A stretch of DNA of 64,000 bases from the NCBI RefSeq assembly GCF_003002055.1, contig NZ_PVZF01000002.1, positions 186,001 to 250,000 of the forward strand, written 5' to 3'. Below, one piece after another: positions 46,542 through 50,613 of the stretch (position 1 is the stretch's first letter; every line of letters begins with the position of its first letter). Origin of the DNA: Kineococcus rhizosphaerae (GTDB lineage Bacteria; Actinomycetota; Actinomycetes; Actinomycetales; Kineococcaceae). The notes under the pieces were generated by a model. It saw only the letters and a program-made list of their open reading frames with translations. It was not told where the DNA came from and did no database searches. A program made the translations under genes and the position numbers.

Positions 46542-46565
46542 CCCGGTCCCCGGGGGCGGGGTCAG
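46538..46565. terminator. Bidirectional terminator containing both stop codons
   Basis: CTGACCC (46538-46544) pairs with GGGTCAG (46559-46565), with an inner CCCC/GGGG stem. The stop of the PPOX gene lies in the left arm and the stop of the Cys-rich LGFP gene in the right arm. Confidence 0.7.
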
Positions 46566-48151
46566 CCGAAGGTGACGGCGCCGGTCGCCGGGTCCAGGAC
46601 GGCCGTTCCCCGCTCGAACGACTGCCGCACCCGCCCGTCGGTGCGCTGGGGCTCACCCGTCGGGAAACCCCACGCCTGCGGGCCGCCGGCGTCGCGGAAG
46701 GCGTCCCGGACCGGCCCGGAGACCGTGTGTGCGACCCCGGCGGGGGACACGTAGACCGACCCGCCCTCGAAGTTCTCGAAGCTGCCGCCCGCCACGGGGG
46801 CCTCGTCCGTCGTGGGCAGCCCCAGCGGACCGGTCTCCCACCCGCCCGCCCGCCACAGGTCCCGCACCGCCCCGACGACGGCGTGCGCCCCCGTCGCCGG
46901 CGAGGAGTAGATCGACCCCCGTTCGAAGTGGTTGTAGACCGCCCGGCCGTTCGGCGTGGTGGCCTGGCCGGTCACGGGGAACCCCAGCCGGCCCGTCTCC
47001 CAGCCGAGGTACGCCCACGCGTCCCGGACCGCGTCGAGCACGACGTGCGCGCCCGTCTGCGGGGTCCAGTAGATCGAGGCGCCGGTCGAGGCCGCGGTGG
47101 TGGACCCCGTGAAGTGGTTGTACCGCCCCCGCCCGTCGGGGGTCGCGCGTTCGCCCGTCGTCGGGTACCCGACCGGGCCGGCCTCCCAGCCCCACGCCTT
47201 CCACTCCTCGCGGATCGCGCCCCACACGGCCTGCGCCCCGGTCTGCGGCGTCCAGTAGACCGACCCGCGCTCGAAGTGGTTGAACCGGCCGCGGCCGTCG
47301 GGGGTGCGCAGCTCGTCCGTCGTGGGGTACCCCAGGACCCCGGCCTCCCAGCCCAGGGCCGCGTAGATCGCCAGGATCGCCCCGTGGACCTCGTGGGCCC
47401 CCGTGGCCGGGGAGTGGTAGATCGAGCCGAAGTCGAACAACTGGTACGTCCCGCCCGGTGCGGGCGTCCCGAGCTCGGGGGTGCGCTGCTCGCCCAGGAC
47501 GCTGCCGGGACCGCCGATCGCGGTGTACTCGCGGCCGATGGGGGTGCAGTCCTTCAGCGCCGGTGCGGTGTGCTGACCCGTGCGCTGGTCGGTCGCCGAC
47601 GTCGTGGTGCAGTTCCACGCCGGGATCCGCCACGGGGGTGTGCAGGTGACGACGCGGCACCACACCGGACCGGTGCACCCGGTGTCCTGGTTGCACTGCC
47701 CGTACCGGAACTCGTTGCAGCACTCCTTGCGCTGGTCGCACTGCCCGGCCGGACCGCACCCGCACGAGCAGTTCCGGCAGCCCTCGCCGCAGAACCTGCT
47801 GCGCCCGCCGCACCCGCAGGAGCAGTAGCTGTGGCAGTCGATGTAGTAGCGCGCGCCGCCGCAGCAGTACCCCGAGCCGTCCGACTTCCACCAGCCGCCG
47901 ACCAGACTGCCCGGGGGGCAGCGGTTCACCCCGTTGTTCACGGTCGCGCAGAACACCGTGTACCCCGACGAGCAGGTTGAGTCGATCCCGCAGACGGCCG
48001 CGTACGCGCTCTGCGGGCGGGTCAGGAAACCCCACGGCCCGACCGACAGGGCCGACCCCACCAGCGCGGTCCGGGTGAGGAACCCCCGTCGGTCCGTGCG
48101 GGCCGCCAGGAACTTCGTGACGGTGCCCAGGACCTTGTCGGCGACGTTCAC
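46562..48151 (-). CDS. Tat-exported Cys-rich MauA-like protein fused to six LGFP repeats
   Basis: 529 residues. A Tat signal (TDRRGFLT, 19-26, then a hydrophobic stretch to about 52) is followed by a domain (about 53-205) with 24 cysteines. Its order CGIDSTC, CPPG (78-81), a Trp pair (W87-W88), then VWC (163-165) and WNC (179-181) resembles the methylamine dehydrogenase light chain, where CPPG precedes the first TTQ tryptophan and an IWC motif holds the second. A Gly/Cys-rich insert of about 50 residues (106-159) is extra. Residues about 225-529 are six LGFP repeats (LGTP, LGYP, VGYP, LGFP, LGLP, WGFP), expected to hold the protein at the wall. GTG 48151 overlaps the upstream stop. Function unknown. 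Confidence 0.78.
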   Translation of the reverse strand: MNVADKVLGTVTKFLAARTDRRGFLTRTALVGSALSVGPWGFLTRPQSAYAAVCGIDSTCSSGYTVFCATVNNGVNRCPPGSLVGGWWKSDGSGYCCGGARYYIDCHSYCSCGCGGRSRFCGEGCRNCSCGCGPAGQCDQRKECCNEFRYGQCNQDTGCTGPVWCRVVTCTPPWRIPAWNCTTTSATDQRTGQHTAPALKDCTPIGREYTAIGGPGSVLGEQRTPELGTPAPGGTYQLFDFGSIYHSPATGAHEVHGAILAIYAALGWEAGVLGYPTTDELRTPDGRGRFNHFERGSVYWTPQTGAQAVWGAIREEWKAWGWEAGPVGYPTTGERATPDGRGRYNHFTGSTTAASTGASIYWTPQTGAHVVLDAVRDAWAYLGWETGRLGFPVTGQATTPNGRAVYNHFERGSIYSSPATGAHAVVGAVRDLWRAGGWETGPLGLPTTDEAPVAGGSFENFEGGSVYVSPAGVAHTVSGPVRDAFRDAGGPQAWGFPTGEPQRTDGRVRQSFERGTAVLDPATGAVTFG

Positions 48152-48612
48152 GTGAGGTCTCCCTGCAGTCGGACCGAGCGGAGCAACGGGGTGAGCCGGT
48201 TGAACAGCTCCGCGCGGCGCGCGAAGGAGCCGAACACCACGTACAGCGTGAAGGCGCGCTCGCCGACGTGGAAGAACCACTGCCCGCCGCACTGGCCGGG
48301 GATGCTGCGCTGCAGCCGGTTCGGGGCGAAGTCGGACACGACGGGGACGGGGAACCCCTCGTCGGCGAACAGGGCCGTCCGGGCCGCGCCGGGGTCCTGC
48401 TCGAAGAGGCTGACGAACACGTCGGTGCTCGTCAGGGTGCCCGTGACCCCGCCGCCGAAGTCCCCGCGCACCGCGGGCAGCGGGACGGTCGCGGCGTGCA
48501 GCACGGGCCGGCGGTGCGCGCCGGGTTCGTGCCCCTCGGGAGCTCGCCGGGTGATGCGCACCTCCCAGCCGTCGGGGGCGTCCACGGACACGCCGTACGC
48601 GTCGAGCCTCAC
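48148..48612 (-). CDS. Small protein of the MauA-like cluster, function unknown
   Basis: 154 residues, starting VRLDAYGVSVDAPDGWEV and ending FNRLTPLLRSVRLQGDL. One cysteine (in GQCGG). No signal peptide or membrane segment. The beta-rich pattern with DAPDGWEV recalls small lipid- or protein-binding domains found beside secretion systems, but I do not recognise the family. Both ends overlap neighbours by four bases (GTGA), so it is made together with the MauA-like exoprotein and the membrane protein. Confidence 0.75.
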   Translation of the reverse strand: MRLDAYGVSVDAPDGWEVRITRRAPEGHEPGAHRRPVLHAATVPLPAVRGDFGGGVTGTLTSTDVFVSLFEQDPGAARTALFADEGFPVPVVSDFAPNRLQRSIPGQCGGQWFFHVGERAFTLYVVFGSFARRAELFNRLTPLLRSVRLQGDLT

Positions 48613-49193
48613 AGCACTCCTCCCGCCAGGGCCGCGACCGCGACCACCACCGACCACGAACCCGTCACGCGGCGGCCCACCGGGGCGAGCCGTTCCAGCC
48701 GGCGGTGCACCGCCGCGAGCCGGTCCGGGGTCGTCACCGACCGCGCCGCGAGCAGCGGCAGCGCCCGCACGAGCCCGAAGGCGAACCCCACGACGGCACC
48801 GGGTCCCGGCCCGCCGGTGGCGGTCATCAACGCCATCGCCAGGTACAGCACGGGCGAGGTGACGATGGTGACGACGCCGACGCCGAGCTGGGCGCCGTAC
48901 CCGAGGCCGTAGACCCACCCGCGGTAGCGGTGCAGCCAGTCCTCGTCGACCTGCCGGTGCCAGCTCGGGAACCACGGTGAGCGGCCGGCCTCGGCGGCCA
49001 CCGTCACGGCGGCCAGCAGCACCACGACGAGCGCGACGGCCGCCGCCGGGACGGGCAGCAGGGAACCGAGCCCGCCCAGCAGGGTCCCCAGCAGCGTTCC
49101 CCCCGCGGCCGAGCCGAGGAGGTGGAAGGCGACCGTGACCGACCACCGGCTGGCGCGTCCCCGCTCCCCGAGCGGGGTGATGCTCGAGAGCAT
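48609..49193 (-). CDS. Polytopic membrane protein of the MauA-like cluster
   Basis: 194 residues with four to five hydrophobic segments. MLSSITPLGERGR at the start recalls the first loop of CcdA/DsbD-like redox membrane proteins, but no cysteine is present, so it could not pass electrons itself in the usual way. It may help transport or assembly of the Cys-rich protein. ATG 49193 is nine bases after the micro-ORF stop. The CcdA link is weak and based only on overall layout. Confidence 0.7.
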   Translation of the reverse strand: MLSSITPLGERGRASRWSVTVAFHLLGSAAGGTLLGTLLGGLGSLLPVPAAAVALVVVLLAAVTVAAEAGRSPWFPSWHRQVDEDWLHRYRGWVYGLGYGAQLGVGVVTIVTSPVLYLAMALMTATGGPGPGAVVGFAFGLVRALPLLAARSVTTPDRLAAVHRRLERLAPVGRRVTGSWSVVVAVAALAGGVL

Positions 49194-49202
49194 CGACTCG
49201 CC

Positions 49203-49283
49203 TCAAGGCGACCAGAGGCTGCGCAGCGCCGCGACGGCGGCGGTCGGCACCCCCAGCACGAGGGCGGCCGTCGTGACGTCCAT
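49203..49283 (-). CDS. Candidate 26-residue hydrophobic small protein
   Basis: ATG at 49283 overlaps the stop of the MauD-like gene (TGATG). The frame runs 26 codons, starting MDVTTAALVLGVP and ending RSLWSP, and stops nine bases before the next gene. The peptide could form one membrane helix. The tight coupling on both sides and its filling of the only gap in the operon make it a likely real gene. No ribosome site beyond the coupling is seen. Confidence 0.5.
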   Translation of the reverse strand: MDVTTAALVLGVPTAAVAALRSLWSP

Positions 49284-50074
49284 CAGTGCCGGTGGTCCGG
49301 GGCGGTCGCGTCCGGGCGCAGGCTCGGGTGGTCGGGCGTGATCCCCGCGGCCAGCAGCTCGGCGTCCGCGCGCGCCTCCCGGTGCGCGCCGCCGTGCCCC
49401 GACCCGTGCCCCGCGTGGCGCCCGTCGAGGTGGATCACCCGGTCGCCCACGGCTTCGGTGACGAGACGCTCGACCTGCTCCCAGTCGGTGGCGCTGCCCT
49501 CGCCGGTGACCCGGCCGGAGGCCGCGTCGACGTAGGCGAAGTAGGGCGAGCCGGGCACCTCGTAGGCCTCCCAGGCGCCCGTGGACATCACCACGTCGAT
49601 CCCGCGGGCGTTCGGCCCCGCCGCGAGGGTCGCGACGGTGCTGGGCGACTCGGCCGTGCTGTCGCGGGTCACGACGACCAGGCGCGTCGCGGGCGGCAGC
49701 GCCAGCGGGGCCGGGTCGGCCAGGCGGTCCCAGACCCGTTGGCACGTCAGGCACCCGCTGGACAGGAACGCGACGAGGGTGTTCGTCGACCCGGCGCCGA
49801 CCGCGACCTGGACGGCGTCGCCGGACGGGGTCGTACCCGAGATGGCCGTCGCCGCCAGACCCACCGGGCCGGTGCCCTCGACGACCCCGCGCCCCACCTC
49901 GAACGGCAGCTGCTGCCGGCCCGCGCCCGGCGCGGTGTCCTCCCGGCCGGCGCCGAGCTCGTGCAGGGACCGCAGGACCTCCGCGTGCGAGCGCAGGAGC
50001 CCGGCGACCAGGACGGCCAGCAGGACGACGGCCAGCAGGAGGCCGACCAGCAGGGTGGTGACGAGCGCGTTCAC
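49283..50074 (-). CDS. MauD-like membrane-anchored thioredoxin-fold protein
   Basis: 263 residues. One N-terminal membrane anchor (about 3-28), then an extracytoplasmic thioredoxin-like domain with the redox motif CLTC in FLSSGCLTCQRVW, and a cis-Pro region near VPGSPYFAYVD. A His/Asp/Gly-rich tail (about 215-263) could bind metal. MauD in methylamine users is thought to help form the six disulfides of the light chain; here the client would be the 24-cysteine protein three genes downstream. The GTG start overlaps the MauE-like stop by four bases. Confidence 0.82.
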   Translation of the reverse strand: MNALVTTLLVGLLLAVVLLAVLVAGLLRSHAEVLRSLHELGAGREDTAPGAGRQQLPFEVGRGVVEGTGPVGLAATAISGTTPSGDAVQVAVGAGSTNTLVAFLSSGCLTCQRVWDRLADPAPLALPPATRLVVVTRDSTAESPSTVATLAAGPNARGIDVVMSTGAWEAYEVPGSPYFAYVDAASGRVTGEGSATDWEQVERLVTEAVGDRVIHLDGRHAGHGSGHGGAHREARADAELLAAGITPDHPSLRPDATAPDHRH

Positions 50075-50613
50075 GCCGGGGTCCTCCGGATCGGGGGGCG
50101 CACCAGGTGCCGGGCGGCGACCAGGCGGGGCAGAGCGGTCAGGACGAGCAGCGTCAGCCCGGTCAGGACCGCCGCCACCAGCAGCGTCGCGACGGCCTGC
50201 GCGGCGGGTGCGGCCAGCGCGGCGTTCAGCCCGCGCGCGGGCCCGAGGGCGGCCGCCCCCGCGGCGAGGGCGAGCGCCGCGGTCACCGCCACGTGGACGC
50301 GGGTGGGCGGCAGGTCCGGTTCACCGAAGCAGCCGCAGGAGCTCAGCGGCCGCCGCCGGGTCAGCGCCAGGACGACGAACCCCGTGAACCCCGCGTACAG
50401 CGCCGCGCTCGCCCAGGCGGCGACGGCCAGCCCGGCGAGCGAGCCGGCGGCGACGAGGACCTCGGCGCCGCCCAGGGCGCGCACGAGACGGGCGTCGCCG
50501 GGCAGCCCCTGGGTCCGCAGGGCCTGCGCCGTGCCGGCGGGGTGCCGCAGCTTCGCGGTCCCGGCGACCAGCAGCAGGACCGTCCCGACGAGGAACAGCA
50601 GCTGCGCAGCCAT
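50071..50613 (-). CDS. MauE/DoxX-like redox membrane protein
   Basis: 180 residues with four to five hydrophobic segments. LVAGTAKLRHP at the start, LGGAEVLVAAG, YAGFTGFVVLAL and the SSCGCFGE motif (about 91-98, CxC before F) are typical of MauE-type proteins, which relate to the VKOR/DoxX redox family. It probably reoxidises or reduces the MauD-like partner across the membrane. First gene of the cluster; a promoter lies just upstream. The ATG at 50613 follows a GTG in the same frame that could also serve. Confidence 0.83.
   Translation of the reverse strand: MAAQLLFLVGTVLLLVAGTAKLRHPAGTAQALRTQGLPGDARLVRALGGAEVLVAAGSLAGLAVAAWASAALYAGFTGFVVLALTRRRPLSSCGCFGEPDLPPTRVHVAVTAALALAAGAAALGPARGLNAALAAPAAQAVATLLVAAVLTGLTLLVLTALPRLVAARHLVRPPIRRTPA

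Follow-up and report, generated by a model that had tools for sequence, protein, structure and literature searches.

A MauF-like protein with probable selenocysteine in a Mau-type operon of Kineococcus rhizosphaerae

A 64,000-nt stretch of the Kineococcus rhizosphaerae genome (contig NZ_PVZF01000002.1, positions 186,001 to 250,000; hereafter the window) carries at 46562-50613, on the minus strand, an operon of overlapping genes encoding, in order, a MauE-like protein, a MauD-like protein, a MauF-like membrane protein with an in-frame TGA, a 154-aa protein and an exported Cys-rich protein with LGFP repeats (Table 1). We read this operon as a thiol-redox maturation module in which a selenocysteine (Sec) form of MauF, together with MauE and MauD, would act on a Cys-rich protein displayed on the cell wall, and put the probability of this reading at about three in four. 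Two of its parts stand more firmly: from profile and family matches the operon is almost certainly a Mau-type module with MauF, MauE and MauD, and the UGA at 49203-49205 is very probably decoded as Sec.

The MauF-like gene and its in-frame TGA

MauF is required in the maturation of methylamine dehydrogenase. An earlier note on this DNA, made from the sequence alone, had listed a micro-ORF (open reading frame) and a polytopic membrane protein as two separate genes of the operon. The 26-codon ORF and the membrane protein in fact share one frame (WSP-TGA-GES-M...), and stop-free homologues read straight through with Cys at this position, so we treat the two as one gene. The membrane protein of the earlier note, hydrophobic on visual inspection, is by profile comparison a MauF homologue; its identity and the probable Sec had been missed. 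When a profile of 26 members was aligned by hhalign with two MauF sequences, similarity over the membrane region had a probability of 98.1% (E 1.4e-13) and a score of 92; none of 60 column-shuffled controls scored above 21 (0/60 shuffles as good), and the reversed profile scored 14. None of the NCBIfam models matches the protein at E<=1. At the site, the MauF sequence reads ...STWSPCGYSSISLLRP and the window reads ...RSLWSP-TGA-GESMLSSITPLGERGR in a single frame.

Across 87 distinct homologous sequences the codon at this site is TGA in 73, TGC in 10 and TGT in 4, with no other codon found; the count allowed any codon at the site, required the flanking WSP...G motif and covers the loci in hand. 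Among the loci searched for TGA or Cys sites, 30 had been fetched by a MauF search. When the MauF-like protein was read with TGA as Sec, 66 genomes of a 396-genome sample of the phylum Actinomycetota gave a match: 52 with one TGA in the match, 8 that cover the site stop-free, and 6 that do not cover it and were left out of the comparison of 52 with 8 (in one of these, G358, the match is short and weak and contains a TAA at another place). The site was read directly in the fetched loci; for the other genomes of the scan the TGA is the program's count.

The window's MauF-like protein has no Cys besides this site, and the matched stretch past the site is likewise free of Cys in 31 of 58 MauF-like homologues; the Sec therefore most likely reacts with a partner protein. 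This sets the family apart from DsbD/CcdA, with which it probably shares a role in moving thiol electrons over the membrane, and whose family PF13386 (DsbD_2) it matches at 23.5 bits, below the cut-off of 24.9.

Hairpins and selenocysteine machinery

Past the TGA lie two hairpins, the apical one a proposed bacterial selenocysteine insertion sequence (bSECIS). PMC13188914 gives as bSECIS criteria a 3-9 nt loop whose first two positions include G, a distance of 16-37 nt from the UGA and an energy of <=-7.5 kcal/mol, to which our script added a contiguous stem. Of the TGA rows, 67 of 71 have such a hairpin, as do 1 of 15 Cys rows and 40% of random synonymous recodings of the same peptides. These hairpin counts (71 TGA, 15 Cys) and the codon counts above (73 and 14) come from different search patterns, each of which requires the WSP...G motif, and the sets differ slightly; L182, which belongs to a different subfamily, was excluded from the hairpin counts. 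In the larger hairpin class (51 distinct rows) the stem shows covariation, with 23 double-change cells, and 94.1% of its cells are paired as against 88.3% (sd 0.8) in shuffles and 55.8% in the same columns of the Cys forms. Variation in the second class, of 18 rows, and in the proximal hairpin is too small for a covariation test. In the proximal hairpin the Ser codon is AGC in 71/71 TGA forms and in 1/15 Cys forms. Among distant MauF-like loci, 7 of 9 scorable TGA sites pass the hairpin threshold and both scored Cys sites fail it; the TGA sites of L182 and L183 escaped the pattern used for scoring. An Rfam search of the TGA region returned nothing credible.

The genome from which the window comes encodes the machinery for Sec: selA (406.7 bits, cut-off 267.9), selB (267.9 bits, cut-off 242.25), selD (376.5 bits, cut-off 125) and a tRNA-SeC with anticodon tca (RF01852, 72.4 bits), all within about 4.2 kb. 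Beside them (L141, 11814-13982) is an ORF that by eye resembles a formate dehydrogenase iron-sulfur subunit. Across the phylum sample, SelA is matched in 50 of the 52 TGA genomes (48 over the cut-off) and in 1 of the 8 no-stop genomes (Fisher p 7e-7). A tRNA-Sec with a best E of about 1e-10 or better is present in 46/52 and 1/8 (p 3e-5), a limit chosen after viewing the table since 393/396 genomes match the model at E<=0.001. Both p values ignore shared ancestry and are hence too small; despite this, the link between TGA and SelA is also seen within one family that has both states, G284 having TGA and SelA, and G134 having Cys and no SelA. The Sec genes are occasional neighbours of the cassette itself: of 96 loci examined, 6 have selA next to it and 9 have selD, and tRNA-SeC was found in 5 of 43 loci scanned (L049, L064, L071, L077 and L196). 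At L064, L066, L071, L077, L081 and L196, selA and selD both adjoin the cassette, with selB as well in four.

The alternative is that the TGA is a true stop, ending a 26-aa leader translationally coupled to a separate membrane protein that starts at an ATG four codons on. Such an in-frame ATG follows the site in 69 of 73 TGA forms, often behind a GGxGAG-like sequence, and GGxGAG...ATG could act as ribosome site and start; this counts against Sec, as do some further observations. The hairpin falls short of the energy threshold in 4 of the 71 TGA rows; the window's own 63 nt fold ordinarily for their composition (z -1.25 vs shuffles); one TGA genome, G256 (73% complete), has neither SelA nor tRNA-Sec; and one no-stop genome, G100, has both. 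A true stop nevertheless appears very unlikely: the Cys forms are single genes whose similar upstream peptide ends in WSPCG, neither TAA nor TAG occurs among the 87 sites, the Met of the possible internal start is missing in 4 of 73 TGA forms, and both SelA and the SECIS-like hairpin divide TGA from Cys or no-stop forms as given above.

The operon and its recurrence

The overlapping layout of the operon with its GTGA and TGATG junctions was described correctly in the earlier note, as were the MauE-like protein with a CxC, the MauD-like protein with CLTC, and an exported protein with 24 Cys, CPPG, WW and VWC motifs and six LGFP repeats.

Table 1. Features of the operon, in coordinates of the window
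Feature	Position	Strand	Evidence
MauE-like membrane protein with CGC	50071..50613	-	PF07291 66.7 bits, cut-off 27
MauD-like protein, hydrophobic N-terminus, CLTC	49283..50074	-	hhalign to MauD
MauF-like membrane protein, 224 aa, TGA at codon 27 probably read as selenocysteine	48609..49283	-	frame, start, hhalign to MauF, Cys-form homologues
TGA in frame, candidate codon for Sec27; MauF and Cys-form homologues have the Cys of WSPCG here	49203..49205	-	73 TGA vs 14 Cys codons
Proximal hairpin GAUGCU-CUCG-AGCAUC, past the UGA and ahead of the apical hairpin; hardly varies	49179..49194	-	conservation
Proposed bacterial SECIS apical hairpin CCCCGCUC-GGG-GAGCGGGG, 33 nt past UGA	49159..49177	-	-14.8 kcal/mol
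154-aa protein, no visible signal peptide	48148..48612	-	partner in 45/45 full loci
Tat-type exported protein: RR signal, Cys-rich domain, six LGFP repeats	46562..48151	-	LGFP 328 bits
Cys-rich domain, residues 52-202, 24 Cys	47546..47998	-	invariant GWW; RYxxDC and FRYGxC motifs

The MauD-like protein is a distant homologue of MauD, aligning with seven MauD sequences at 98.5% probability (hhalign, E 3.5e-15; no shuffle came close), and TIGR02661, the MauD equivalog model, does not match it. Given the profile matches of MauF and MauD and the Pfam match of MauE, the F, E and D members of the Mau maturation set are all present. Their putative redox motifs are well kept: CxC occurs in 65/65 MauE-like homologues and CxxC in 72/74 MauD-like homologues. 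The 154-aa protein gave a confident model (predicted local distance difference test, pLDDT, 94.3), for which Foldseek found nothing at E<=0.001 (best 0.019); weak Tsi3-, LpqN-, MucB-, PsbP- and EagT6-like matches do no more than suggest a PsbP/LpqN-like fold. It shows no visible signal peptide, and a role as cytosolic chaperone of the Cys-rich protein may be ventured as a weak guess.

The earlier note had proposed looking for the same gene order in other genomes, and it recurs across Actinomycetota. The Cys-rich domain is matched in 34 of the 396 phylum-sample genomes at E<=0.01, in 30 of these at E<=1e-14. A scan of named genomes yielded 248 relatives, the best 80 of which were kept; judged by their titles, these 80 are all from Actinomycetota (including two metagenome-assembled genomes labelled Streptomyces sp. 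and Mycobacterium sp.), and the nearest among them are Kineococcus species. In the 80 loci MauE was found 65 times, MauD 74, the MauF-like membrane protein 58 and the 154-aa protein 77. In the 45 full loci among these, defined by flanks of 4000 nt or more upstream and 3500 nt or more downstream, the counts are 43, 45, 38 and 45, and all five genes are present in 38. Because the domain recurs in the phylum sample and all five genes stand together in 38/45 loci, chance can be rejected as an explanation of the operon. No relative is encoded on viral contigs, and plasmids gave no MauF-like match.

More distant MauF-like genes also stand beside Tat-type (twin-arginine translocation) proteins. Fourteen such loci were fetched, 11 of them from the 26 TGA genomes and 3 from the 5 no-stop genomes. 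In 13 of these loci the MauF-like gene has, at a distance of up to about 1.5 kb, a Tat-type ORF whose stretch that was read contains 10 or 12 Cys. These ORFs form two families, B and C, which are homologous to each other (hhalign 94.4%) while homology to MauA or to the domain in the window could not be demonstrated by the same comparison: shuffles were as good in 5/50 trials for the window domain against B, 29/50 for the window domain against C, 18/50 for B against MauA and 1/50 for C against MauA. Both families lie at L177-L186 and L193-L195, where 11 of 13 adjoining MauF-like genes carry TGA. At L178 (7094-8236) a single ORF beyond the in-frame TGA joins a MauF-like to a MauE-like protein. 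That MauF, MauE and MauD repeatedly keep company with a Tat-type, Cys-rich protein is the strongest reason to think that this protein is what the module acts on.

The exported protein, the proposed relay and its alternatives

A twin-arginine motif, TDRRGFL, is visible in the exported protein, and TIGR01409 scores 16.5 bits, just below its cut-off of 16.7. The model of the Cys-rich domain is confident (pLDDT 89.5; predicted template modelling score, pTM, 0.84). Domains of the family contain 16-26 Cys, with 13 alignment columns in which at least 90% of rows have Cys. What follows the domain varies: LGFP, CWB2, DUF4214, a tail that matches no Pfam family (4 of the 9 scanned) or no tail. A single TGA reported in three Cys-domain matches was suspected of being Sec and proved to be the natural end of short, tail-less proteins.

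That a Mau-type redox system accompanies the exported protein, and that neither MauB nor MauG is in the window, was rightly seen in the earlier note; among 30 genomes searched MauB is matched in none and a MauG-family domain in one, with a MauB model that does find the MauB of Paracoccus. The note's further claim, that the Cys-rich domain derives from the methylamine dehydrogenase light chain, MauA, fared less well. The note had also proposed to set W87/W88 and W164 against the two Trp of the tryptophan tryptophylquinone (TTQ) cofactor. In an alignment of the TTQ positions that rests on motif order, the first WW is present in 63/63 rows and the second Trp in 7/63, all of a close Kineococcus-like group, so TTQ is not a family trait. 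This, with the lack of a MauB match in 30 genomes, led us to reject a TTQ or amine dehydrogenase function as a family trait.

Descent from MauA is a separate matter. The Cys-rich protein could descend from MauA, having lost TTQ and MauB and acquired a tail for wall binding, which we consider possible if doubtful. Its partners MauF, MauE and MauD are MauA's own; both proteins are rich in Cys, with CPPG...W...DC in the same order and a similar spacing of the first Cys; and RR signals are found in the 7 fully read MauA proteins and in most listed Cys-rich members. MauA-like proteins of Thermomicrobium, clear relatives of MauA in a positive control (hhalign 97.9%), match the domain better than any of 80 shuffles, whether alone or with MauA, although over 16-17 columns and at 5% probability, which makes a distant link conceivable. 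The direct comparisons speak against descent. PF02975 exceeds its cut-off in 0/34 genomes with the Cys-rich domain, phmmer and hmm-profile searches of PDB sequences gave no match at E<=10, and hhalign against MauA itself stays near shuffle level (2% probability, score 18.8; shuffles as good in 3/60 local and in 25/60 and 16/60 global trials). A structural comparison, also proposed in the earlier note, was made by Foldseek on the model and gave no match at E<=0.001 (best 8.2); with a fold this small and Cys-rich, that is weak evidence. A Thermomicrobium roseum plasmid (L123, 7875-15970) encodes three MauA-like Cys-rich ORFs, all clear MauA relatives by hhalign, and a fourth whose halves are in different frames. 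Between these ORFs stand others for proteins of about 400 aa, and the record has no PF06433 MauB.

Among the nearest known systems are the mau genes of Paracoccus. There too homologous mauF, mauE and mauD stand beside a Tat-type Cys-rich partner, and the SPCG position is shared; the window's operon differs in having probable Sec for Cys in MauF, no MauB match in 30 of 30 genomes and no MauG-family match in 29 of 30, an extra gene for the 154-aa protein and a partner that is not detectable as MauA and whose relatives often carry wall-binding repeats. According to PMC7794033, MauE and MauD are required in methylamine dehydrogenase maturation, with a disulfide role of MauE given as speculation and the function of MauD as unclear. 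In the mechanism that we propose, a thiol relay would run from the cytoplasm through the Sec of MauF and the CGC of MauE to the CxxC of MauD and on to the exported Cys-rich protein, with oxidation or isomerisation of its disulfides as the outcome. Electrons would cross the membrane along this path, in a direction and order that are our own suggestion.

That the module folds its Cys-rich partner seems to us fairly likely. The connection of MauF, MauE and MauD to the disulfides of this partner comes from gene order and from work on methylamine dehydrogenase, and 7 of the 45 full loci have no MauF-like gene nearby (L086, L088, L089, L091, L099, L109 and L120); both points weigh against the module reading. 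It is conceivable, if unlikely, that the Cys-rich protein is instead a surface thiol or metal buffer that the Sec protein feeds with electrons and that the module does not fold. The abundance of Cys in each domain, the display of several members on wall-binding repeats and the fact that Sec favours fast thiol exchange would all suit a buffer. The conserved Cys columns and the confident model are better suited to fixed disulfides, and the Mau precedent is one of folding. The maturation module is the reading we prefer.

With known bacterial selenoproteins, as described in PMC13188914, the MauF-like protein shares an in-frame UGA at a redox Cys, a bSECIS-like hairpin and the Sec machinery. Table 1 of that 2026 catalogue, with 119 prokaryotic selenoprotein families or subfamilies, contains in the sections consulted neither MauF nor an SPU motif, the nearest entry by name being a rhodanese/DsbD fusion-like TsoB (UxxxxU). 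A term search of PMC5029168 and PMC9312934 found neither mau nor methylamine. Literature searches linking MauF, MauE, CcdA, DoxX or methylamine utilization with selenoproteins or selenocysteine, and LGFP with methylamine dehydrogenase, returned nothing relevant in a coverage that leaves out most subscription journals. The proposed Sec form of MauF is absent from the catalogue as consulted, and an earlier notice elsewhere is possible.

If the reading is correct, it would add a new membrane selenoprotein family, with a TGA-bearing match in 52 of the 396 sampled genomes of the phylum, which annotation under the standard code would split into a peptide and a truncated protein. Selenium would be tied to disulfide chemistry outside the cytoplasm, and the module would offer a handle on the unsettled roles of MauF, MauE and MauD in methylamine dehydrogenase assembly. 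With Sec and Cys forms of one protein to compare, the role of selenium would be directly testable. More broadly, we give even odds to the idea that in Actinomycetota a selenium-dependent membrane thiol relay of MauF-Sec, MauE and MauD is dedicated to the folding of several Tat-exported, Cys-rich families of surface proteins that look unrelated, and may in this way help to keep Sec in these bacteria.

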